From positions 1-30,830 of IMG/VR virus record IMGVR_UViG_3300013010_000006: 30,830 nt of DNA; one strand, written 5' to 3'. The position numbers and the translations under genes were made by a program. The notes beneath the pieces are model-generated. The model did not search any database. It saw only the letters and a list, made by a program, of their open reading frames with translations, and was not told the origin of the DNA. Of the stretch, positions 1,785 to 30,830 are shown piece after piece (position 1 is the stretch's first letter; every line of letters begins with the position of its first letter). The DNA is from a virus.

Positions 1785-3606
1785 TAAAAGCGAGTTCTCA
1801 GTAATGGGAATGCCAGTGCATGACGTTCCACAATTTGAAGAAGTACAAGGAAAGAATTGGATATCATACGGCTCTGATGATTGCTATGGTGATTATCTTG
1901 AGAGCTTGTATCTTGGATCTTCAATACATTCAGCAATTGTGAATGGTGTTGGAGCTATGATATACGGCAAAGGACTGGATGCGGTTGAAAGAGATGATTC
2001 AGATGGTAACAAAGAGCAGTGGTTGAGACTTCAATCTCTATTGAATAGCAGTGATGATGATTTGCTCAAAAAATTAGCTATTGACTTAAAGCTATACGGC
2101 CAGTGTTATGTGAATACAATCTGGAATAAAGCAAGAACTTCAGTTGCTCAGATGAAACACTTGCCAGTGCATACGTTGAGAGCTGGTGTAGCAGACAGTG
2201 AAGGAAATATACATGAGTGGTATTACAAAAATTCTTGGGCAAGGTCTAATGATAGAGTAAAACCAAATGTATTGAAGTCTTTTTCAAGTGAGGACAGAAC
2301 AAATGCATCCACAGTTTTACAGATAAAGAGATATGCTCCATCTTTTCATTATTATGGGTTGCCAGATTACGTTGGTTCAACTGGATATATAGAACTGGAT
2401 CATGAGGTGCAGTCTTTCCATCTAAACAACATTAAAAATTCACTCATGCCAAGTATGATGTTGAGTTTTTCTAATGGTATTCCAACAGATCAAGAGAGAG
2501 CAGATATTGAACGCAAAGTATATGAAAAATTCTCTGGAAGTAACAATGCTGGAAAGCTATTAATAACGTTTAATGATGGGCCAGATACAGCTCCAAAGAT
2601 TGAACCAATTTCAAGCAATGGATCTGATGATATGTACACCTACCTAAGCACTGAGATAACTAACAAAGTGCTCTCAGGTCATAGAGTGACATCACCACTA
2701 TTATTTGGAGTGAGAGGTGGTGGAAATTCTTGGGGTTCTAATGCTGATGAATTAAATGATTCATACAGTTTATTCCACAATACAGTTGTAGAGGAATTCC
2801 AAGAAATTTTACTCAAGGGATTACAGCCTATATTTGAATCGAATGCTATAAATTTAGATATATTTTTCATTCCATCGAAACCAGCTAACTTCATAAATAT
2901 TGAAGATGACACTACTGAGGTCGTAGAACCACCAAAAGAAGAAATGAGTAGTGAGATACCTAAACCAGATGAAAGTTGCTTAGAAGCTCTCTTATCACTT
3001 GGAGAGGATGCTCCAGAAGGATATGAAGTGATTGATGAACGTGAAGTGGATTATGATGATGAAGATCGGCTTGATGGAATGATTAATGGAGTGAATTTAG
3101 CTTCAGTAATTCCAAATCCAAGTGATCAATCAAAAGAGCAAGACAATCCACTGTTTAAAATTAGGTATCAATACGCTCCACTGAAAATAAACCAGATGAA
3201 ATACAAGAGCAGAGACTTTTGTGTCAAAATGGTCAATGCTGCTAAGTTTTATACTAAGGAAAATATCTACAAAGCTGGTAGAACAGCGGTCAATAAAGGA
3301 TGGGGGCCAAAAGGTGCATCAAAATATGACATATGGCTATATAAGGGCGGTGGATCATGTGCTCATTATTGGAGTAGATTCACGTTCCTGAAGAAAGATG
3401 ATTCAAGAATCACTGCTAAACAACGACAAGCCATAATTAATGCGCTTGATCCAGATGAAAGAAAAGCAGTCACACCAAAAAAGAATGATCCAAAGGTAGC
3501 AGAGAGACCAAGAGATATGGATAACCGAGGATTTTTACCATCTAACAAAGCAGCTCAGAATATTAAAACTCCAGTGAATTACGTGAAACCAAAAGAAGAT
3601 AATTAA
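1774..3606 (+). CDS. Portal protein with C-terminal extension
   Basis: The 610-residue product resembles portal proteins of Bacteroidota phages, which form the dodecameric ring at one capsid vertex through which DNA is packaged and released. The N-terminal 370 or so residues show the usual order: a start region with YLESLYLGSSIHSAIVNGV, a segment LYGQCYVNTIW, a mid-region with HYYGLPDYVG and the later EITNKVLSGHRVTSPLLFGV followed by a Gly-rich loop. An acidic linker (about 375-440) leads to a separate C-terminal domain with SRDFCVKMVNA, YDIWLYKGGGSCAHYW and a Lys-rich end. That domain looks like a structural domain that other Bacteroidota phages carry in a separate head protein (from memory, not searched). 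The gene overlaps the fibre gene by 11 bases and is followed 2 bases later by the connector. The portal assignment is fairly secure; the fusion is inference. Confidence 0.75.
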   Translation: MKNNKSEFSVMGMPVHDVPQFEEVQGKNWISYGSDDCYGDYLESLYLGSSIHSAIVNGVGAMIYGKGLDAVERDDSDGNKEQWLRLQSLLNSSDDDLLKKLAIDLKLYGQCYVNTIWNKARTSVAQMKHLPVHTLRAGVADSEGNIHEWYYKNSWARSNDRVKPNVLKSFSSEDRTNASTVLQIKRYAPSFHYYGLPDYVGSTGYIELDHEVQSFHLNNIKNSLMPSMMLSFSNGIPTDQERADIERKVYEKFSGSNNAGKLLITFNDGPDTAPKIEPISSNGSDDMYTYLSTEITNKVLSGHRVTSPLLFGVRGGGNSWGSNADELNDSYSLFHNTVVEEFQEILLKGLQPIFESNAINLDIFFIPSKPANFINIEDDTTEVVEPPKEEMSSEIPKPDESCLEALLSLGEDAPEGYEVIDEREVDYDDEDRLDGMINGVNLASVIPNPSDQSKEQDNPLFKIRYQYAPLKINQMKYKSRDFCVKMVNAAKFYTKENIYKAGRTAVNKGWGPKGASKYDIWLYKGGGSCAHYWSRFTFLKKDDSRITAKQRQAIINALDPDERKAVTPKKNDPKVAERPRDMDNRGFLPSNKAAQNIKTPVNYVKPKEDN

Positions 3607-3608
3607 TC

Positions 3609-4190
3609 ATGGCAAGTACTACAATTGTATTGGTATCTCCATCAAGAGTTAAGAGAGATACATCACTGGGTGGATCGGTTGATCCAAATGTGTTATTTCC
3701 AGCTATTTTACAAGCTCAAGAAAAATGGATTTTGCCAGTGCTGGGAACAGATCTTTATAATAAGATAAAAACACTGATTTCAGCTGGAACAATTGACGAA
3801 GTTGGAAATGAAATTTATGCCACATTATTGAACACATATATCATTCCATGTTTGGTGCAATTTAGCTTCATGGAGGTGATACCAGTGTTGAGAGTGAGAT
3901 TCGTGAACAATGCTGTTGTGGCAATGAACTCTGAACAAGGTGGATCTGTGTCATATGATGATATAAAACCTCTCATATCAACTGCAAGAGATATTGCATC
4001 ATGGTATAAAGAAAGACTAATTGACTATCTATGTGCAAACTCCTCAACATATCCAGAATTTACAAGCAATACATTTCCAGATGTTGCACCATCTTCAGCA
4101 AACTACACTCAAGGATTAAATGTGGAGAGATCATACAACAAATCAGAAGCAGAAGCATTATTGAGATTAATTACTGGGCCAAGAGTATGA
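3609..4190 (+). CDS. Head-tail connector (adaptor) protein
   Basis: The 193-residue product is mostly helical and follows the portal directly. The stretch ILQAQEKWILPVLGTDLYNK near residues 32-51 matches a signature I associate with connector proteins of Bacteroidota phages (DUF6712-like), where N-terminal helices bind the portal. It would form a ring under the portal and join it to the tail. The later segment has a conserved-looking helix around SWYKERLIDYL, then a polar C-terminal tail. Position after the portal supports the role. No catalytic motif is visible. The family name is from memory; the connector role is moderately sure. Confidence 0.65.
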   Translation: MASTTIVLVSPSRVKRDTSLGGSVDPNVLFPAILQAQEKWILPVLGTDLYNKIKTLISAGTIDEVGNEIYATLLNTYIIPCLVQFSFMEVIPVLRVRFVNNAVVAMNSEQGGSVSYDDIKPLISTARDIASWYKERLIDYLCANSSTYPEFTSNTFPDVAPSSANYTQGLNVERSYNKSEAEALLRLITGPRV

Positions 4191-4330
4191 AACTTAACAA
4201 GCGCACCAGAGCTAATATCAAAAAATTAAAGAAATATATTAAGAAACATGGCAACAAAAAAAGTAACACAACTGGCAACAGCGACAAGTGCAGCGGATCT
4301 GGATCTTGTGATGATTGTCGATGTGGCTGA
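4187..4330 (+). CDS. Possible small basic protein, 47 aa
   Basis: An ATG at 4187 overlaps the stop of the connector gene in an ATGA junction, the arrangement used by many genes here. It opens a 47-codon frame. The first 25 residues are very basic (MKLNKRTRANIKKLKKYIKK) and the end has four cysteines within ten residues. The second half overlaps the next gene by 83 bases in another frame, so its Cys-rich, Gly/Ser-rich tail may be a by-product of that gene. The start geometry argues for a real gene; the overlap argues against. No function is assigned. Confidence 0.35.
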   Translation: MKLNKRTRANIKKLKKYIKKHGNKKSNTTGNSDKCSGSGSCDDCRCG

Positions 4331-4967
4331 CACTGCGATGTCACCAGATGGCACAAATAAGCAGATCACAAAAGCCAATTTATTGACTGGAATTGGTGGA
4401 GGTGGAGGATTGCTTGTATCAGGCGGTGCAAGGATTCAAGTTTCTACAACTACCGACAACGGTTCTCTCTGCATTGGATGGGGTGGATCTTTGGGTTTTA
4501 ATTACTATGTATGGTCTTCTTCTATTGGAGCAAATCCTTTGACTACGGGTGGGGATTTAGGAACTCCAGGTACTACACAAATAGCTTCAGTTACTATGAG
4601 TTCAGTAGTTAATACAATGTTTGTAGCTGCTTCTTCAGGAACGGCAACATTTTCAGTTATTCAAGAGTTTGATAGTTCTGCTGAAGTAGCTGGAGTTGTT
4701 ATGAGATATATGATATGGAAAGCAGATGCTGGTTTAGTTACTGCTTTAGAAAATGGAACTGGAGGTGCTGGATTAACTGCTACTTTAGTTGCAAGTGCAA
4801 AATTGACCGTACCAGCATCTTCTCAATCTATTAAACCTATGGTTGTAACTTCTACAAATGGGGTTGCTATTGCTAAAGGTGACATAATATTTGGCTGTAC
4901 TGTTTATGATGGTACGGTTACTGGCACTCAATATTTTCCTATGAACCTTTCAATTTACACAGTATAA
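4248..4967 (+). CDS. Putative virion adhesin / secondary tail fibre
   Basis: The 239-residue product opens with a pattern typical of phage fibre and appendage proteins: a short Thr/Ala-rich head (TKKVTQLATATSAADLDLVM) and then KQITKANLL at about 38-46, which usually precedes a trimeric shaft or receptor-binding domain. A Gly run at 50-54 separates this from a beta-rich, Ser/Thr/Gly-rich C-terminal domain of about 185 residues with few charges, as expected for a virion surface domain. It has no signal peptide. It lies between the connector and the membrane-protein cluster and ends in a TAATG junction with the next gene. A role in host attachment is inferred from composition and the N-terminal pattern only. 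Confidence 0.5.
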   Translation: MATKKVTQLATATSAADLDLVMIVDVADTAMSPDGTNKQITKANLLTGIGGGGGLLVSGGARIQVSTTTDNGSLCIGWGGSLGFNYYVWSSSIGANPLTTGGDLGTPGTTQIASVTMSSVVNTMFVAASSGTATFSVIQEFDSSAEVAGVVMRYMIWKADAGLVTALENGTGGAGLTATLVASAKLTVPASSQSIKPMVVTSTNGVAIAKGDIIFGCTVYDGTVTGTQYFPMNLSIYTV

Positions 4968-12740: not shown

Positions 12741-13065
12741 GAAAGTAACAAAATTCACTGGACTGAAAGCTGCTGTGGAATCCATCTTTGGAGAGGATTG
12801 TGGATGCTCAGAGAGGAAAGAGAAATTGAATAAACTTTTTCCATTTGGAGCACATATGAGTGCAGAGGATCGTGATCTCTATAACAAGCATTTGATAAAT
12901 TGGAAGAAGGGCGGTAAGGTGACTGCTTCACAGCAACATCTGGCCATTGATATTTGGATCAGAAGCACAAACAAAAAAAAGAAATTTTCCAATTGCACAT
13001 CTTGTGTAAGGAAATTCTTTGAGGATATTGAAAAACTATATGAAAACAGTTGCGACAATGACTAG
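12694..13065 (+). CDS. Small Cys-containing phage protein, 123 aa
   Basis: The product begins with a very basic segment and then GLGDTIEKVTKFTGLKAAVE (10-29), FGEDCGCSERKEKLNKLFPF (32-51) and a later CTSC. Similar proteins with GLGDTIEK...GEDCGC are known to me from Bacteroidota phages without a function. The two Cys pairs could bind a metal ion. It overlaps the sigma-like gene by 47 bases and the ParB-like gene by 8 bases, so it is co-transcribed with both. A regulatory or nucleic-acid role is possible. Confidence 0.6.
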   Translation: MKSKKKPSKGLGDTIEKVTKFTGLKAAVESIFGEDCGCSERKEKLNKLFPFGAHMSAEDRDLYNKHLINWKKGGKVTASQQHLAIDIWIRSTNKKKKFSNCTSCVRKFFEDIEKLYENSCDND

Positions 13066-13636
13066 ACCTATCAATAAAATATTTGCTCATAAAAAAAATC
13101 CACGTTTTATACGAAACGAAAAATATCTGGAGCAATTAAAAAGCATAAAAGAGACACCAGAGATGATGAAGCTCAGACCAGTAATAATAGACGAGAATGA
13201 TATCATACTTGGAGGACATCAAAGATGGAGAGCGTGTAAAGAATTAAAGTGGAAAGATATTCCAGTCACACAATATACCAGAGAGATGCATTTGAAATCT
13301 GAATCGTGGACTGTTTATGGAAAGTCATATGAAGCAGTCGGTGCTGAAGTTGCCATCAAAGACAATACACACTATGGAGAATTTGATTATGATATTCTTG
13401 CGAATGAATGGGATGTGCATCCATTGGTTGATTGGGGACTGGATGTCTGGCAACCAGAAACGGATCTGAATTTGGATGAATTTTTTGCTGAACCAGATAT
13501 TACACCAGAGAGCTCTGATTTCAAAATCATTCTTGAATATAGCGAAGATGAATACAATAATCTGATGGAAGTATTTGAGAAACAAAGTGGATCAAAAGAA
13601 TCAATCATATACAAATTGCTTACAGATGAAAAGTGA
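13058..13636 (+). CDS. ParB/Srx-like domain protein
   Basis: I take ATG 13058; the earlier in-frame ATG at 13019 would put 13 unrelated residues before the domain. Residues 3-75 match the ParB N-terminal (sulfiredoxin-like) fold: an Asn-Pro-Arg at 14-16, then LRPVIIDENDIILGGHQRWR (39-58) with the characteristic GGHQRWRA loop, and IPV. ParB proteins use this fold to bind nucleotides, and in phages it often accompanies DNA modification enzymes. The last 80 residues are acidic. It is an isolated domain: no methyltransferase or partition partner is fused or adjacent. It is directly upstream of the 7-deazaguanine island. Its role there is inference. Confidence 0.7.
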   Translation: MTRPINKIFAHKKNPRFIRNEKYLEQLKSIKETPEMMKLRPVIIDENDIILGGHQRWRACKELKWKDIPVTQYTREMHLKSESWTVYGKSYEAVGAEVAIKDNTHYGEFDYDILANEWDVHPLVDWGLDVWQPETDLNLDEFFAEPDITPESSDFKIILEYSEDEYNNLMEVFEKQSGSKESIIYKLLTDEK

Positions 13637-13961
13637 AGTGATAATACAATTTGAAATGGAGGGATTTCACAACTATCCAAATCCACCAGAACAAGTTGAG
13701 TTTTTAAAGTATGTCCACAGACATACATTCACAATCAAATGTGGCTATGAAGTAACAGATCTGAACAGAGAGAAAGAAATTTTCATATGCAGAGACATGG
13801 TGAAAGAATATCTCACAGAGGCGTATGGATATCCTTGTCAATTTAAAAACATGAGCTGTGAAATGATCGCAAAAGAAATACTTGAATTCAGTAAAGAAGA
13901 TCAAATGAAGTGGTGTGAGGTATGGGAAGAAAACACTGGTGGAGCAAAAGTTGAATTATGA
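13626..13961 (+). CDS. Possible T-fold protein, distantly QueD-like, 111 aa
   Basis: Start at ATG 13626; an earlier TTG at 13575 lies inside the ParB-like gene. The product has EMEGFHNYPNPPEQVEFLKY (10-29), then HRHTFTIKCGYEV and a later NMSCEMIAKEILEF. The His-x-His strand and the Cys-Glu near the end of the chain recall the T-fold of QueD and pterin enzymes (HGH and T-x-E-N), but the spacing is not that of normal QueD. Phages often carry this small family with no known function. Next to DpdA, a role in making or checking the modified base is attractive but unproved. Confidence 0.4.
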   Translation: MKSEVIIQFEMEGFHNYPNPPEQVEFLKYVHRHTFTIKCGYEVTDLNREKEIFICRDMVKEYLTEAYGYPCQFKNMSCEMIAKEILEFSKEDQMKWCEVWEENTGGAKVEL

Positions 13962-14869
13962 TTGTACCAAACCAATCAAATTTGAAAGTTCATTATGCTG
14001 GTGCTGAGGATATTAGAATTGCTGAGTTCATACATTCAAAAGCAGACATTAATTATCATCTGTTCACAGTTTATCCATTTATCAGAAAGAAACAAAAAAA
14101 TGATAAAGAGTATATTCAAAGACTTGAAAAGATATCTAAACACAGCATCATGGACAGCGGATTGTTCACACTAATGTTTGGAGCTGAAAAAGGAAAAAAA
14201 GACGCAAAATTCTTAGATAATTGGACAGAAAAACTGATTGAATTTATTCAAGAAACAAATTATGCTGGAACATATGTTGATGTTGATTGTCAGAAAATTC
14301 TTGGTGTAGATCAAGCGTGGAAATATCGAAAACTTTTACGAAGTAGATTACCAAACAACAGACAAATAAATGTATTTCATATAGAGGATGGAAAGAAAGG
14401 ATTGGATGAATTGATAGAATATACAGATTACATTGCAATATCTGTTCCCGAACTCAGATCGATCAAGAAGTCGGAATACTTATATCGTGTGTTTTGTTAT
14501 ATTAAAAACAAAAAGCCAGATATCGATGTACATTTGTTAGGATACACAGAGTTCAAAGGCATATCAAAATACAAGGATGCATCAAGCTGTGACAGTGTCT
14601 CTTGGAAACAAGGTTCAATGTATGGTCAAATTGTAAAACTAAATACACAAAAAAACTCGGTTGAAGTATTTGTCAGTAATACAAAACGAAGCTCCAACAG
14701 TGGCAAAAGAATTGATTATGATGCAATAGGAAATTCGTATGAATCCATAGTGAGAGAACACTTCAATAAAAAACTAACAGAACGTTCAATAATTAATTAC
14801 GGAATTGATCTCAGCAATGCAAAAGAATATAGAAAAATCAGCGAATACTTCGTTGGCCCTCAAGATTAG
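13958..14869 (+). CDS. dpdA: DpdA-like guanine transglycosylase for DNA
   Basis: The 303-residue product looks like phage DpdA, a relative of tRNA-guanine transglycosylase that exchanges guanine in DNA for a 7-deazaguanine base. Key segments are IMDSGLF (64-70), with Asp66 matching the DSG/F catalytic loop, YVDVD (106-110) with a probable nucleophile Asp, VFHIEDG (139-145), AISVPELR and LLGYTEFKGISKYKDASSCD (193-212) with DSVSW after it. It lacks the Cys3-His zinc site of bacterial TGT, as expected for the phage type. Neighbouring genes supply its base: FolE, QueD, QueE and a precursor transporter. Family moderately to highly sure; specificity unknown. Confidence 0.75.
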   Translation: MIVPNQSNLKVHYAGAEDIRIAEFIHSKADINYHLFTVYPFIRKKQKNDKEYIQRLEKISKHSIMDSGLFTLMFGAEKGKKDAKFLDNWTEKLIEFIQETNYAGTYVDVDCQKILGVDQAWKYRKLLRSRLPNNRQINVFHIEDGKKGLDELIEYTDYIAISVPELRSIKKSEYLYRVFCYIKNKKPDIDVHLLGYTEFKGISKYKDASSCDSVSWKQGSMYGQIVKLNTQKNSVEVFVSNTKRSSNSGKRIDYDAIGNSYESIVREHFNKKLTERSIINYGIDLSNAKEYRKISEYFVGPQD

Positions 14870-15353
14870 TCTTTATTTATTGGCATTTGTATTTGCTAAT
14901 TTCATTGTGTTATGGTTCGGATCCAAAGGTCTAATCTTCACAGCTCTCTTTCTTGTGCCATTTGACTTCGTGATCCGATGTCTGTTTCATGAGACTTGGA
15001 AAGGTATGGAGCTGTTTCTGAAACTGGGTGCGCTTGTGTTGATTGCAAGTGCTCTCACGTATGTAATAAACAGAGACAGCTTGAACATAGCACTTGGAAG
15101 CGCATGTGGATTCATAGCTGCTCAAATAGCTGCTGGGATCTTCTATCAATTAACTATTAAAAGGAATTTTTTTATTAAGGTGAACGGATCCGATGCGGTT
15201 GGTATTTTAGTTGACAGCATCATCTTTCAAGTGGTGGCCTTTGAAATAATAATTCCAAGCATCACTTTGTCACAATTCTTACTGAAAATTATCGGTGGAC
15301 TTTTTTGGTACTGGGTAATTTTTGTCAAATTAAAACTTCAAGAGAAAATATGA
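14817..15353 (+). CDS. YhhQ/VUT-type 7-deazaguanine precursor transporter
   Basis: ATG 14817 gives 178 residues and overlaps the DpdA gene by 53 bases; a TTG at 14853 is an alternative and would start at the first membrane helix. The chain has about five or six hydrophobic segments and signatures of the VUT (YhhQ) family: FANFIVLWFGSKG, LVPFDFVIRCLFHETWKG, VINRDSLNIA and the diagnostic KVNGSDAVGILVDSIIFQVV. In E. coli YhhQ imports preQ0 and preQ1. Here it could import precursor base into the infected host cell. It is coupled to queD by ATGA. A virion-encoded transporter inside a base-modification island is consistent with that role. Confidence 0.7.
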   Translation: MQKNIEKSANTSLALKISLYLLAFVFANFIVLWFGSKGLIFTALFLVPFDFVIRCLFHETWKGMELFLKLGALVLIASALTYVINRDSLNIALGSACGFIAAQIAAGIFYQLTIKRNFFIKVNGSDAVGILVDSIIFQVVAFEIIIPSITLSQFLLKIIGGLFWYWVIFVKLKLQEKI

Positions 15354-15748
15354 AAGTTGTAAAAAAATATCACTTTTATGCAGCACATAGAAATAAATCT
15401 GCTGGTGAAAAGTGTGGAAGATTACATGGCCATACCTATCATGTGAAAGTTCATCTTGACTTTCCTAAGTGGAAGAAAGATGTCACAATTTTATTTCAAG
15501 AGATAGATGAAAAATGTGAAAGAGTAATAAAGCTGTACGATCATTATCTTCTACTTTACATCAATGATCCATTAGCAAAAATATTGCACGATGCCAACGA
15601 GCCATTTCACCCACTTTATTTTGAAACATCAGCAGAGAATGTTGCAAAGAATATCTTTAATGAAATAAAAGAAACTGGTTTACCAATTTCAAGATTAGAA
15701 TTAGCAGAAACAGAATCCTCAAATATTATCTATGAATCTACCAATTAG
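15350..15748 (+). CDS. queD: 6-carboxy-5,6,7,8-tetrahydropterin synthase
   Basis: ATG 15350 lies in an ATGA overlap with the transporter stop; 15 more codons upstream are only the other frame of that gene. The 132-residue product has all residues of QueD: zinc ligands His13, His26 and His28 in CGRLHGHTYHV, catalytic Cys22, the Asp64-His65 pair in LYDHYLLL and Glu120/122 in LAETESSN. ETSAENVAKN is the usual T-fold C-terminal motif. QueD converts dihydroneopterin triphosphate to 6-carboxytetrahydropterin, the second step to 7-deazaguanines. Length matches the family. Confidence 0.88.
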   Translation: MKVVKKYHFYAAHRNKSAGEKCGRLHGHTYHVKVHLDFPKWKKDVTILFQEIDEKCERVIKLYDHYLLLYINDPLAKILHDANEPFHPLYFETSAENVAKNIFNEIKETGLPISRLELAETESSNIIYESTN

Positions 15749-16331
15749 CGAAATTTTCTACTCCTTACAAGGTGAAGGATTAAGAACTGGCACAGCAAAT
15801 ATATTTGTCAGAATACAAGGCTGCAAAGCCAAACATGCTTGTTATGCTTCTGGCATACGATGTGACACAGAATTCACCAGTGGAACAGATTACACACTGG
15901 ACGAAATACACGACATGATTCAAGATCTTGGAAAAGGTTGCATGAACATCATTTGGACTGGAGGCGAACCAGCTGACAGAGTAAATGAAGAAGTAGTGAA
16001 GTGGTTTAAGGATAAAGGATATTATCAATGTATTGAAACATCTGGATTGTTTCCAGTCACAGATCTACTTGATTATGTAACTATCTCTCCAAAGGTGGCT
16101 GAACATGTTATAGCTAAAAACTTCAAACACGTTAATGAATTGAGATATGTTCGTCACAAAGGTCAGAGCGTTCCAGTTCCTACAATTACAGCTGACAGTT
16201 ATTGCATTTCACCTCACAGTGATGGCATGGATATTAACTCTGAAAATTTAAAACATTGCGTACAACTCTGCTTAGATAATCCACAGTGGAGATTGAGCGT
16301 ACAAAACCACAAGATATGGATGGTATTATAA
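15732..16331 (+). CDS. queE: 7-carboxy-7-deazaguanine synthase (radical SAM)
   Basis: The 199-residue product matches Que[18 protein letters not shown] (5-21), VRIQGC (26-31), CDTEF (44-48), the SAM-binding IIWTGGEP (73-80), ETSG and YVTISPK. QueE turns 6-carboxytetrahydropterin into 7-carboxy-7-deazaguanine. The cluster-binding cysteines appear as Cys31, Cys37 and Cys44, a C-x5-C-x6-C spacing. The familiar short CxxC before Asp-Thr is missing, because the residue three before Cys44 is Gly. That is unusual for the family. The 3' end overlaps folE by 16 bases. Assignment is fairly secure; the cluster geometry is the odd point. Confidence 0.82.
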
Positions 16332-16867
16332 CACAAAAAGAAGCAGAACAATATCTAGCAAAAGTGCTAGAGTATTTAAATGAAGATCCAACTCGTGAAG
16401 GATTGGTTGAAACACCTAAACGATATCTCAAGTTCATGAAAGAATTTCTTTCACCACCTGATTTCAAATACACCAGCTTTGAAAATGAAGGAACTGATGA
16501 TATGATTGTACAAAGAAACATCCCTTTCTTTTCTTTGTGTGAACATCACATAGCTCCATTCTTTGGAGTTGCTCATGTTGCCTATATTCCAAACGGAAAT
16601 ATTATAGGATTGAGTAAATTAGCGAGAACAGTTGAAACATACTCAAGACGATTACAAAACCAAGAAAGAATCACACAACAGATTGCAGAGCGTTTAATGG
16701 ACGAACTAAACGCAAAGGGGGTTGCAGTCGTTATGGAAGCTGAACACCTCTGTATGGCCATGAGAGGAGTTAAGAAGCATGGAGTAACAACTACAACAAG
16801 CAAGATGTGTGGAATATTCTTTGAAGATAGCAAAACCAGAAATGAATTTATGAGCTTAATTAAATGA
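16316..16867 (+). CDS. folE: GTP cyclohydrolase I
   Basis: I choose ATG 16316 over GTG 16286, because conserved sequence begins only afterwards. The 183-residue product has the FolE signatures: [15 protein letters not shown] (24-38), [12 protein letters not shown] (73-84) with zinc ligands Cys75 and His78, IGLSKLAR (97-104), [11 protein letters not shown] and [12 protein letters not shown] (143-154) with zinc ligand Cys146. It converts GTP to dihydroneopterin triphosphate, the first step in the path to 7-deazaguanine. It ends in an ATGA junction with the small terminase, so the island and the packaging genes lie in one transcript. Confidence 0.9.
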
Positions 16868-17211
16868 ATAAAACTGAATTGAAAAAGAAAGCTATGATGG
16901 AAGCTCTGGAGAAATCACTTGGTGTAGTCACTCAAGCATGTAAGATTGCAAGTGTATCCAGAACGCAATACTATCAATGGTTAAAAGATGATCCAGTATT
17001 CAAGAAGCAGACAGATGATATTGCTGAGATAGCAATTGACTTTGCTGAGAGCAAACTTCATTCTCTTATCAGTCAAGAGAACGTGCCAAGCACAATATTC
17101 TATCTCAAGACAAAAGGAAAGAAACGTGGATATGTAGAATCTCAAGAAATGACTATCTCAGAACCAAACAAAAAGCCAAGCTGGATCACAAGCGAGGATG
17201 AAGCAGAGTAA
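16864..17211 (+). CDS. Terminase small subunit
   Basis: The 115-residue product carries a helix-turn-helix (about 20-42, [20 protein letters not shown]) followed by a helical segment with [14 protein letters not shown] and a conserved-looking end [14 protein letters not shown]. This arrangement fits phage small terminases of the phBC6A51-like type, which bind the packaging site and hand DNA to the large subunit. The direct neighbour is the large subunit (14-base overlap), and the start is in an ATGA junction with folE. Function is well supported by family and context. Confidence 0.8.
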
Positions 17212-18352
17212 GTCATATTACGACTGTAAGAACTGTGATACTCGTATCCAAGTGCATCAAGGTGGAACGAGATCTGGCAAGACGTATTCTATATGTCAGG
17301 CATTAATCGAATGGTGTGTAAATAATAAGAATGCTGGTTGGGTTATTACAATCATAAGAAAGACAATGCCTTCTCTCAAGGCAAGTGTAATGAGAGACTT
17401 CTTTGAGATATTAGAGAATGAAGGATGGTATTCACCAATGAATCATAACAAATCATCTTCACAATATATTCTGTTTGGAAATGTCATTGAATTTGTTTCA
17501 ATCCAAGAACCACAACGAATCAGAGGCCGCAAAAGACACATAGCATTTTTGAATGAGTGCAATGAATTAACCTTTGAAGATTTCACTCAGATAATTTTGA
17601 GAACTTCAGAAATTATGATAATGGACTTTAATCCATCTGATGTATTTTCTTGGATATATGACAAAGTAATGACCAGAGATGATTGCAGCTTTTTTCAAAC
17701 TACATATCTGGACAATCCATTCTTAGACGAAAACACAATAAAAGAGATTGAATACCTAAAATTAACAGATGCAAATTATTGGAGAATTTATGGACTTGGT
17801 GAACGTGGCTTGAATATCGCTGCTATCTTTCCACACTTTAATCAAGTAGATAAAACTCCTGACAGAGCAAAGTTTATTTCATTTGGTTTAGACTGGGGAT
17901 TCACAAACGATCCAAGCGCACTCATATCTGTGTACAAAGATGGTTTGGATCTATATGTTGAAGAACACTTGTATGAAACTGGCTTGACAAATAATGATCT
18001 GAGCAGAAAAATGAAAGATCTTGGAATAACACGTGAAGAAATTATTGCAGATTCAGCAGAGCCTAAATCGATCACTGAACTATCTAGACATGGATTCTTA
18101 ATCAAGGGCGCGAACAAAGGGCAAGATAGTGTCAGGTTAGGAATAGACGTAATGAAACGCCACAGAATAAACATCACAAAAGAAAGCACCAATTTAATTA
18201 AAGAGATGCAGTCATATAAGTGGAAAACAGATAGAGATGGAAACCAAATCAACGTGCCAGAGAGTGGTAATGACCATGCTATTGATGCACTCAGATATGT
18301 TTGTTTGAATAAGCTCATGGAAAACTACTCTGGAAAATATTACATATCATAA
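17198..18352 (+). CDS. Terminase large subunit
   Basis: The 384-residue product is a complete phage packaging motor. Walker A is GGTRSGKT (22-29); Walker B is IAFLNE (115-120), with Glu120 as catalytic acid; a coupling-like motif follows in MDFNPSD. The nuclease domain has GLDWGFTNDP (Asp232), IIADSAEPKSI (Asp285) and GNDHAIDALRY (Asp359 and Asp363), the RNase H-like metal site. It cuts concatemeric DNA and pumps it into the prohead using ATP. The sequence is typical of the Terminase_3/6 type; whether cutting is headful or site-specific cannot be seen from it. Confidence 0.92.
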   Translation: MKQSKSYYDCKNCDTRIQVHQGGTRSGKTYSICQALIEWCVNNKNAGWVITIIRKTMPSLKASVMRDFFEILENEGWYSPMNHNKSSSQYILFGNVIEFVSIQEPQRIRGRKRHIAFLNECNELTFEDFTQIILRTSEIMIMDFNPSDVFSWIYDKVMTRDDCSFFQTTYLDNPFLDENTIKEIEYLKLTDANYWRIYGLGERGLNIAAIFPHFNQVDKTPDRAKFISFGLDWGFTNDPSALISVYKDGLDLYVEEHLYETGLTNNDLSRKMKDLGITREEIIADSAEPKSITELSRHGFLIKGANKGQDSVRLGIDVMKRHRINITKESTNLIKEMQSYKWKTDRDGNQINVPESGNDHAIDALRYVCLNKLMENYSGKYYIS

Positions 18353-29797: not shown

Positions 29798-30830
29798 ATG
29801 ATTCAGCTCACCAAAGGAACAAACGTATTGGATATCAATCTAAGTGATTTTAGTGGAGCTGGTCAAGACGTGGTTCAGAATGGATCATTTAATGATATAG
29901 GTTCAGACCTTGTTCAGAATGGTGATTTTGCTGAGATAGGTTCTGAGCTTGTCACGAACGGAGATTTTAGTGCTGTTCCATTAGGTGGTGAACTTGTGAC
30001 TGATGGAAACTTTCCAACGCCAAATGTAAATTGGAGTTTATCTTCATCATTTACAATAGCAAATAACAAGCTGCATTGTCTATCAGATGGAACATATGAA
30101 TTTGCTTATCAGAGTTCAGTTTTTGAAATTGGCAAATCATATGTAATTACTTTTGATATTACTGGATGGACTTTAGGAACAATAAGAGTAAGACCAACAG
30201 CAGAGTCTCCTTTTCAAAAGGCTTCTGCTAATGGTAGTTATTCTTTTTTTTATGTAGCTGTTGAAAATACTCAATTAATAATAGAAAGAGATTCAGGTGC
30301 TTGTGATATGTTCCTTGAAAATATCTCAGTTAAGGAAGCTACCAACCTTGTCACAAATCCAAACTTTACGGATACGGGAAGTGAGCTTGTAACAAATGGA
30401 GATTTCAGTTCAGGTAGTGGTTGGAATGGTTCAATAAGTGTATCAGGTGGACAAGGGACTAAAACAAGTTCTGGTTTAGCTTATCAAGGTGGCGTTGTAG
30501 CAGCAGAAAAATCATATCAAGTATCTGTTGATGTAGCAAGTTTGGGTGGTGCCCCCGCACAAATTTATGCGGGTGGTAACAATAGCGCAGCACTAACGGT
30601 TGGTGTACAAACAATATATATTACAGGTGGTTCAACTAATGATTTTATTGGATTTAATAATGGTTATTCAGGTGGTGTAGGTGCTGTATTCAATAGCATA
30701 TCAGTTAAAGAACTCGGAGAGGATTGGACTACTGTTGAAGATACAATTTCGTTTAGTGAAAACGGCTTAGTAATGACTTCAACGGAAGGAACAGATGTAA
30801 ATGTAAGAACAACACCTGCAATTGTAGAGG
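29798..30830 (+). CDS. Modular tail fibre / receptor-binding protein, N-terminal part (continues at position 1)
   Basis: ATG 29798 opens a frame that stays open to the end of the window and continues at position 1, giving an 897-residue protein. The first 15 residues (MIQLTKGTNVLDINL) resemble the start of a short virion protein of Bacteroidota phages. Residues 23-76 are tandem short repeats of the form LVxNGDF, and then two beta-rich modules follow, ending at ISVKE (176-180) and ISVKELGEDW (301-310). The LVTNGDF pattern is typical of carbohydrate-binding modules (CBM4/9-like) in phage fibres, so binding to cell-surface polysaccharide is likely. The last 123 bases are the terminal repeat. The terminator at 29734 lies 27 bases upstream. 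Confidence 0.75.
   Translation, partial: MIQLTKGTNVLDINLSDFSGAGQDVVQNGSFNDIGSDLVQNGDFAEIGSELVTNGDFSAVPLGGELVTDGNFPTPNVNWSLSSSFTIANNKLHCLSDGTYEFAYQSSVFEIGKSYVITFDITGWTLGTIRVRPTAESPFQKASANGSYSFFYVAVENTQLIIERDSGACDMFLENISVKEATNLVTNPNFTDTGSELVTNGDFSSGSGWNGSISVSGGQGTKTSSGLAYQGGVVAAEKSYQVSVDVASLGGAPAQIYAGGNNSAALTVGVQTIYITGGSTNDFIGFNNGYSGGVGAVFNSISVKELGEDWTTVEDTISFSENGLVMTSTEGTDVNVRTTPAIVE
29867..30013 (+). repeat. Tandem in-frame repeats coding for LVxNGDF units
   Basis: Four imperfect units in register: 29867-29905, 29906-29944, 29945-29989 and 29990-30013, two of 39 bases, one of 45 and a shorter one. They encode VVQNGSFNDIGS, LVQNGDFAEIGS, LVTNGDFSAVPLGG and LVTDGNF. Two similar units follow the first full module (residues 183-208). 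Each unit looks like the first strand of a carbohydrate-binding module without the rest. Confidence 0.75.
30708..30830. repeat. Terminal direct repeat (right copy)
   Basis: Identical to bases 1-123, and in the same reading frame of the fibre gene. It is the second copy of the overlap produced by linearising a circular or circularly permuted genome. Confidence 0.85.

Follow-up and report, generated by a model that had tools for sequence, protein, structure and literature searches.

The virus record IMGVR_UViG_3300013010_000006 of IMG/VR, analysed here over its whole length of 30,830 nucleotides ('the window'), carries a 7-deazaguanine DNA-modification island of six genes that overlap head to tail (positions 13626 to 16867, plus strand). 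These encode, in order, a small protein of PHROG 17812, a DpdA-like DNA guanine transglycosylase, a YhhQ-like transporter, QueD, QueE and FolE. We read the island as a complete operon that is independent of QueC. FolE, QueD and QueE would make 7-carboxy-7-deazaguanine (CDG), the small protein would take CDG and most likely decarboxylate it, and DpdA would insert 7-deazaguanine into the phage DNA. The probability of this reading is, in our estimate, roughly 0.55. The kind of system, DpdA-type 7-deazaguanine DNA modification, is known; the version with the small protein in place of QueC is new.

The genes for CDG synthesis, an established pathway (PMC13329287, PMC6884629), are all identified by Pfam, PHROG and TIGR profiles. 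QueD, the 6-carboxytetrahydropterin synthase (15350-15748; PF01242, E = 1e-20; TIGR03367, E = 3e-17, below the cut-off), keeps in its sequence the zinc histidines, the catalytic cysteine (motif EKCGRLHGH), the Asp-His pair and the glutamate. QueE, the CDG synthase (15732-16331; phrog_2076, E = 1e-22; TIGR04508, E = 7e-29, below the cut-off), aligns as a radical SAM protein with three cysteines in the spacing C-x5-C-x6-C. This spacing is unusual, yet it is common to relatives that do carry QueC, and the window QueE is therefore probably functional. FolE, GTP cyclohydrolase I (16286-16867), starts at GTG 16286 or at ATG 16319 and is the clearest match (PF01227, E = 4e-67; TIGR00063, over the cut-off).

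In the usual view, every further 7-deazaguanine is reached from CDG through QueC. A six-frame profile search of the window with PF06508 returned no QueC, and the positive controls were matched. The sole QueF match in the window was FolE itself, below the cut-off; it is a cross-match within the T-fold superfamily, and no credible QueF is present. Among the remaining genes of the window, scanned with PHROG and Pfam, no amidotransferase turned up. The window thus contains neither QueC nor Gat-QueC or an equivalent, as the branch to preQ0, 7-amido-7-deazaguanine (ADG) and G+ would need. The genome is very probably that of a complete tailed phage, because the two ends of the record form an exact direct repeat of 123 bp (1-123 identical to 30708-30830); portal, terminase, tape measure and head proteins are among its genes. 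An earlier sequence-only reading of this DNA had described FolE, QueD, QueE, a DpdA-like protein and YhhQ as one overlapping series in an apparently complete genome, had found no QueC, QueF or amidotransferase and had proposed a profile search for the first two. All of this is borne out. Its description of the island as one that stops before QueC is right about the missing gene and wrong about a simple stop, as the island carries an alternative to QueC.

This alternative is the first open reading frame (ORF) of the island (13626-13961, 111 amino acids; phrog_17812, E = 7e-18). Its PHROG has no annotated function, and no family model for it exists in Pfam, NCBIfam or PADLOC. The AlphaFold2 model (predicted local distance difference test (pLDDT) 96.8) has as its top PDB match in Foldseek the QueD of Escherichia coli (4ntk; E = 7e-7, probability 1.0, template modelling (TM) score 0.77). 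In sequence, the QueD/6-pyruvoyl-tetrahydropterin synthase-like protein PH0634 of Pyrococcus matches over the full length (E = 0.007), and a profile of the small protein matches an alignment of phage QueD proteins (E = 3e-5), with no significant match to a single QueD sequence. Eleven residues are invariant in 48 aligned members (H15, L27, H31, R32, H33, R48, E51, S77, C78, E79 and E101). By alignment, profile and fold, H15, H31 and H33 correspond to the zinc histidines of QueD, and E79 and E101 to its substrate glutamates. The catalytic cysteine that precedes the HxH motif in functional QueD is, by contrast, an invariant leucine (Leu27) in 48 of 48 sequences.

The small protein thus has a predicted T-fold with three putative zinc histidines (alignment, Foldseek and profile). 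Because this triad and the glutamates are kept while the cysteine has become Leu27, it is, judged from sequence and model, a paralogue of QueD whose active site has been remodelled. It shares with the superfamily of QueD and 6-pyruvoyl-tetrahydropterin synthase the fold, the zinc histidines and the substrate glutamates, and differs in the exchanged cysteine, in having no invariant histidine beyond the triad and in the new invariant residues R32, R48, E51 and C78. Such a combination would fit the binding of a guanine-like base together with a new reaction. Relatives occur in several hundred viral stretches as well as in phage isolates (Cellulophaga phage phiST, Pseudomonas phages PA5oct and Paride, Acidovorax phage ACP17 and Faecalibacterium phage Roos); a scan of bacterial genomes gave one short contig of a metagenome-assembled genome only.

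The small protein and QueC are mutually exclusive. Among 50 viral records that carry the small protein, each searched in full, none contains QueC, while FolE is present in 41, QueE in 40 and a DpdA of the phrog_887 type in 24. A second, independent set of loci was picked by FolE similarity alone. Those with QueE, FolE and DpdA divide into 21 with the small protein, 33 with QueC, five with neither and none with both. If only intact slots between the ParB-like gene and QueD are considered (33 loci), the small protein occupies 15, QueC or a QueC-like protein 16 and neither is found in two, again with no locus containing both (Fisher p = 1.5e-7; the loci are related, so that p-values overstate their independence). 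Conversely, none of 20 QueC-type records contains the small protein, the one weak match being QueD. Isolates are split in the same way: Cellulophaga phage phi38:2 has QueC and phiST has the small protein. Substitution of the small protein for QueC is well supported. Phage phi38:2, described as 7-deazaguanine-modified (PMC11515303), was considered as evidence on the product of the small protein and dropped, since it carries QueC and QueF and no small protein.

Two observations concern the QueC-type loci themselves. In three of them the QueC slot holds a short or divergent protein of 155 to 201 amino acids with the SGGxDS motif (L114:8526-9005, L116:2028-2492 and L101:8317-8919), possibly a QueC relative with another reaction; recounting these as 'neither' still leaves no locus with both. 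A DUF6884 protein lies between QueC and QueD in L092 (9219-9632) and was seen here in QueC-type loci only (5/50).

Comparison with close relatives shows the exchange directly. The proteins of two loci, L088 and L090, are 96% (QueE), 90% (FolE) and 91% (TerL, the large terminase subunit) identical to those of the window. L090 is collinear with the window, with aligned blocks around the operon of 74-85% DNA identity (blastn), and around the operon the one interruption is 13060-15359, which reaches to the beginning of queD and inside which a short piece of the ParB-like gene stays conserved. Here the window has the small protein, DpdA and YhhQ, and L090 has DpdA and QueC (PF06508, E = 5e-58). A third filling is found in L091, whose QueE is 95% identical to that of the window: DpdA and a Methyltransf_23-like protein (2142-2717). 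We therefore define 13060-15359 (plus strand) as an exchange slot, from blastn against these three loci and the ORFs of L090 and L091. Its GC content is 34.5%, against 36.4% for the genome. The Methyltransf_23-like protein also lies between DpdA and QueD in L126 (1367-1948), and in both loci neither QueC nor the small protein is present.

The choice of cassette follows DpdA. On a tree of QueE and FolE from 51 loci, 24 changes of cassette type are needed, the mean for shuffled labels being 24.0. On a tree of DpdA, built from 44 of them, only eight are needed, compared with 21.9 after shuffling. DpdA and the choice between QueC and the small protein therefore travel together, independently of FolE, QueD and QueE. 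Such free swapping among close relatives points to a different final DNA base.

DpdA itself (13958-14869, 303 amino acids; phrog_887 'queuine tRNA-ribosyltransferase', E = 2e-23) gives an AlphaFold2 model with a pLDDT of 91.4, whose best Foldseek matches are all tRNA-guanine transglycosylases (TGTs; E = 3e-6). D66, D110 and D212 are invariant in the alignment, in agreement with a TGT fold with catalytic aspartates. One loop differs with the cassette: YVAIGG in the presence of QueC, YIA[IL]S[VI]PELR in the type found in the window and CVAGG in a type with a glycosyltransferase. In our reading this loop may correspond by position to the TGT contact with the 7-substituent (IGG). In loci with the small protein and no phrog_887 DpdA, at least three other TGT/DpdA-like families, as judged by motifs, recur next to the small protein. 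A scan of viral sequences seeded with DpdA as a single-sequence query gave no relatives.

The proposed pathway can be set out as follows. FolE, QueD and QueE would supply CDG. Some gene must take over CDG in place of QueC, and apart from DpdA the small protein alone is present throughout. It would divert CDG from QueC and remove the carboxyl group, giving 7-deazaguanine, which DpdA would exchange for guanine in the phage DNA. Decarboxylation of this pyrrole-type acid would be the simplest reaction, because a protein of this size with a QueD-like pocket and without a nucleotide or flavin motif could hardly perform amidation or carboxylate reduction. The small protein and its matching DpdA would then form a module that is swapped against DpdA with QueC, and against other fillings, between the ParB-like gene and queD.

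Several points weigh against this. The zinc site is deduced from the alignment and not from a metal-bound structure, and the QueD-like residues would suit any substrate with a 2-amino-4-oxo-pyrimidine, not CDG alone. The complete Faecalibacterium phage Roos (gene order small protein, DpdA, YhhQ) and record G028 (locus L056) have the small protein and DpdA without FolE, QueD and QueE, so that in these the host would have to supply CDG, or the small protein would act on something else. Finally, the glycosyltransferase that often neighbours the small protein in other phages sits oddly with a bare 7-deazaguanine, on which carbon 7 alone could serve as acceptor.

The first rival is that DpdA inserts CDG itself, giving deoxy-CDG (dCDG), with the small protein in an accessory role, such as carrying CDG or partnering DpdA. 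Locus L136 is its cleanest candidate: DpdA is directly followed by QueD (3319-4526) in an otherwise empty slot, FolE and QueE are present, and DpdA there seems able to insert a base unaided by QueC or the small protein. Reportedly, dCDG is among the bases found in phage DNA. The same locus indicates that DpdA as such needs no small protein. The small protein pairs with several DpdA lineages that differ widely, which speaks against a dedicated partner, and the 11 invariant residues of its enzyme-like site speak against an accessory; direct insertion leaves the small protein unexplained. We consider this rival rather unlikely. Direct insertion was one of two options in the sequence-only reading, which correctly started from the absence of QueC and overlooked the first gene of the island.

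The second rival, also unlikely in our view, has the small protein convert CDG into a different base, or work on the base once it is in the DNA, with a product that can be modified further. Glycosyltransferases of the GT-B type speak for it. At a distance of up to 4 kb, 58 of 101 loci with the small protein have one, usually directly adjoining, and none of 50 loci with QueC does (Fisher p = 3e-14); after clustering at 70% identity the figures are 35/62 and 0/34. The protein matches Pfam Glycos_transf_1 and, remotely, a solved mannosyltransferase. Its adjacency hints that a glycosylated base forms: either the product of the small protein can be glycosylated, or the glycosyltransferase acts elsewhere. 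A radical SAM/SPASM protein is also present in some loci. The window, however, contains no such glycosyltransferase, and the small protein has no obvious cofactor site for richer chemistry.

We offer, tentatively, an extension of our reading. PHROG 17812 might catalyse the first step of a branch that does without QueC. Some phages, that of the window among them, would insert the resulting CDG-derived base plain, and in many others the adjacent GT-B protein would attach a sugar to it, for instance through C-glycosylation of the nucleophilic carbon 7 left free. The final-step cassette would be swappable and, if this is true, exchanged at such a rate that the DNA base differs between close relatives.

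The other option of the sequence-only reading, use of host QueC or of imported preQ0 or preQ1, would leave the small protein unrelated; it is disfavoured and appears quite improbable. The window does encode a YhhQ-like transporter (14805-15353, start uncertain and likely downstream of 14805; phrog_4899), whose match to PF02592 (YhhQ/Vut_1) is just above the cut-off (29.6 against 27.2 bits) and whose substrate is a prediction, and some phages encode DpdA alone, according to PMC6884629. An imported preQ0 would leave FolE, QueD and QueE without a purpose, though, sister phages with the same three genes carry QueC in the slot with another DpdA, and the exclusion between QueC and the small protein is left unexplained. 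YhhQ was also rejected as the explanation of the missing QueC, being as rare in one type as in the other (8/101 loci with the small protein, 3/50 with QueC); the same paper finds it uncorrelated with any phage group, in agreement with these counts. Lastly, a second QueD acting at the earlier pathway step, as the fold might suggest, is highly improbable, given a full QueD three genes downstream, Leu27 in place of the catalytic cysteine and QueC-type cassettes that also need QueD yet never carry the small protein.

The island, which we read as a QueC-independent operon, resembles the FolE, QueD, QueE and DpdA clusters of the preQ0/dG+ phages (Enterobacteria phage 9g, CAjan and Vibrio phage nt-1), and an anti-restriction role would be expected there and here. 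Those phages have QueC or Gat-QueC, whereas the window has the QueD-fold protein in the slot. Mycobacterium phage Bipper and the uncultured clone 7AX_2, whose genome is noted as incomplete, are reported to lack only QueC, with CDG suggested as the base possibly inserted by Bipper; the excerpted text of PMC6884629, on which these comparisons rest, names no QueC replacement for the two, which are likened to the window by description only.

In 2023 Cui et al. are said to have found deoxy-7-deazaguanine (dDG) and dCDG in phage DNA and to have predicted a CDG decarboxylase, DpdL. The step proposed for the small protein is alike (CDG to 7-deazaguanine, followed by DpdA insertion), the two being compared by activity and not by sequence. 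A family that excludes and replaces QueC would give CDG a second way out and would account for the phages listed as 'missing QueC'. Exchange at the slot suggests that the DNA base is changed by swapping one module, as expected under modification-sensing defences. With the family already present in isolated phages, its product can be measured without new isolation.

The island is preceded by a ParB-like gene (13019-13636, plus strand, start codon uncertain; PF02195, E = 4e-5, below the cut-off; phrog_17622/620). It is directly followed by the genes for the small (TerS) and large terminase subunits (16864-18352, plus strand; phrog_4044 and phrog_2), which close the conserved downstream block. 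A nucleotide search with a 14-kb part of the window matched none of the phage records. A ParB-like gene is found near the slot in many loci (in phi38:2 between QueC and DpdA); its tree partly tracks the cassette type, and the glycosyltransferase type forms one clade. Between the small protein and QueD, and never with QueC, a GT-B protein is seen in L040, L059, L097-L099, L106, L110, L125, L132 and L155; a companion of about 135 amino acids often lies beside it, and a radical SAM protein is present in L155 (SPASM), L095 and L047. In larger phages with the small protein (PA5oct, L174; BUCT-ZZ01, L004; phiST, L002; MA9V-3, L003), genes for a phosphoribosyltransferase, MazG or a protein like deoxynucleoside monophosphate (dNMP) kinase lie nearby, which might indicate use of the base at the nucleotide level.

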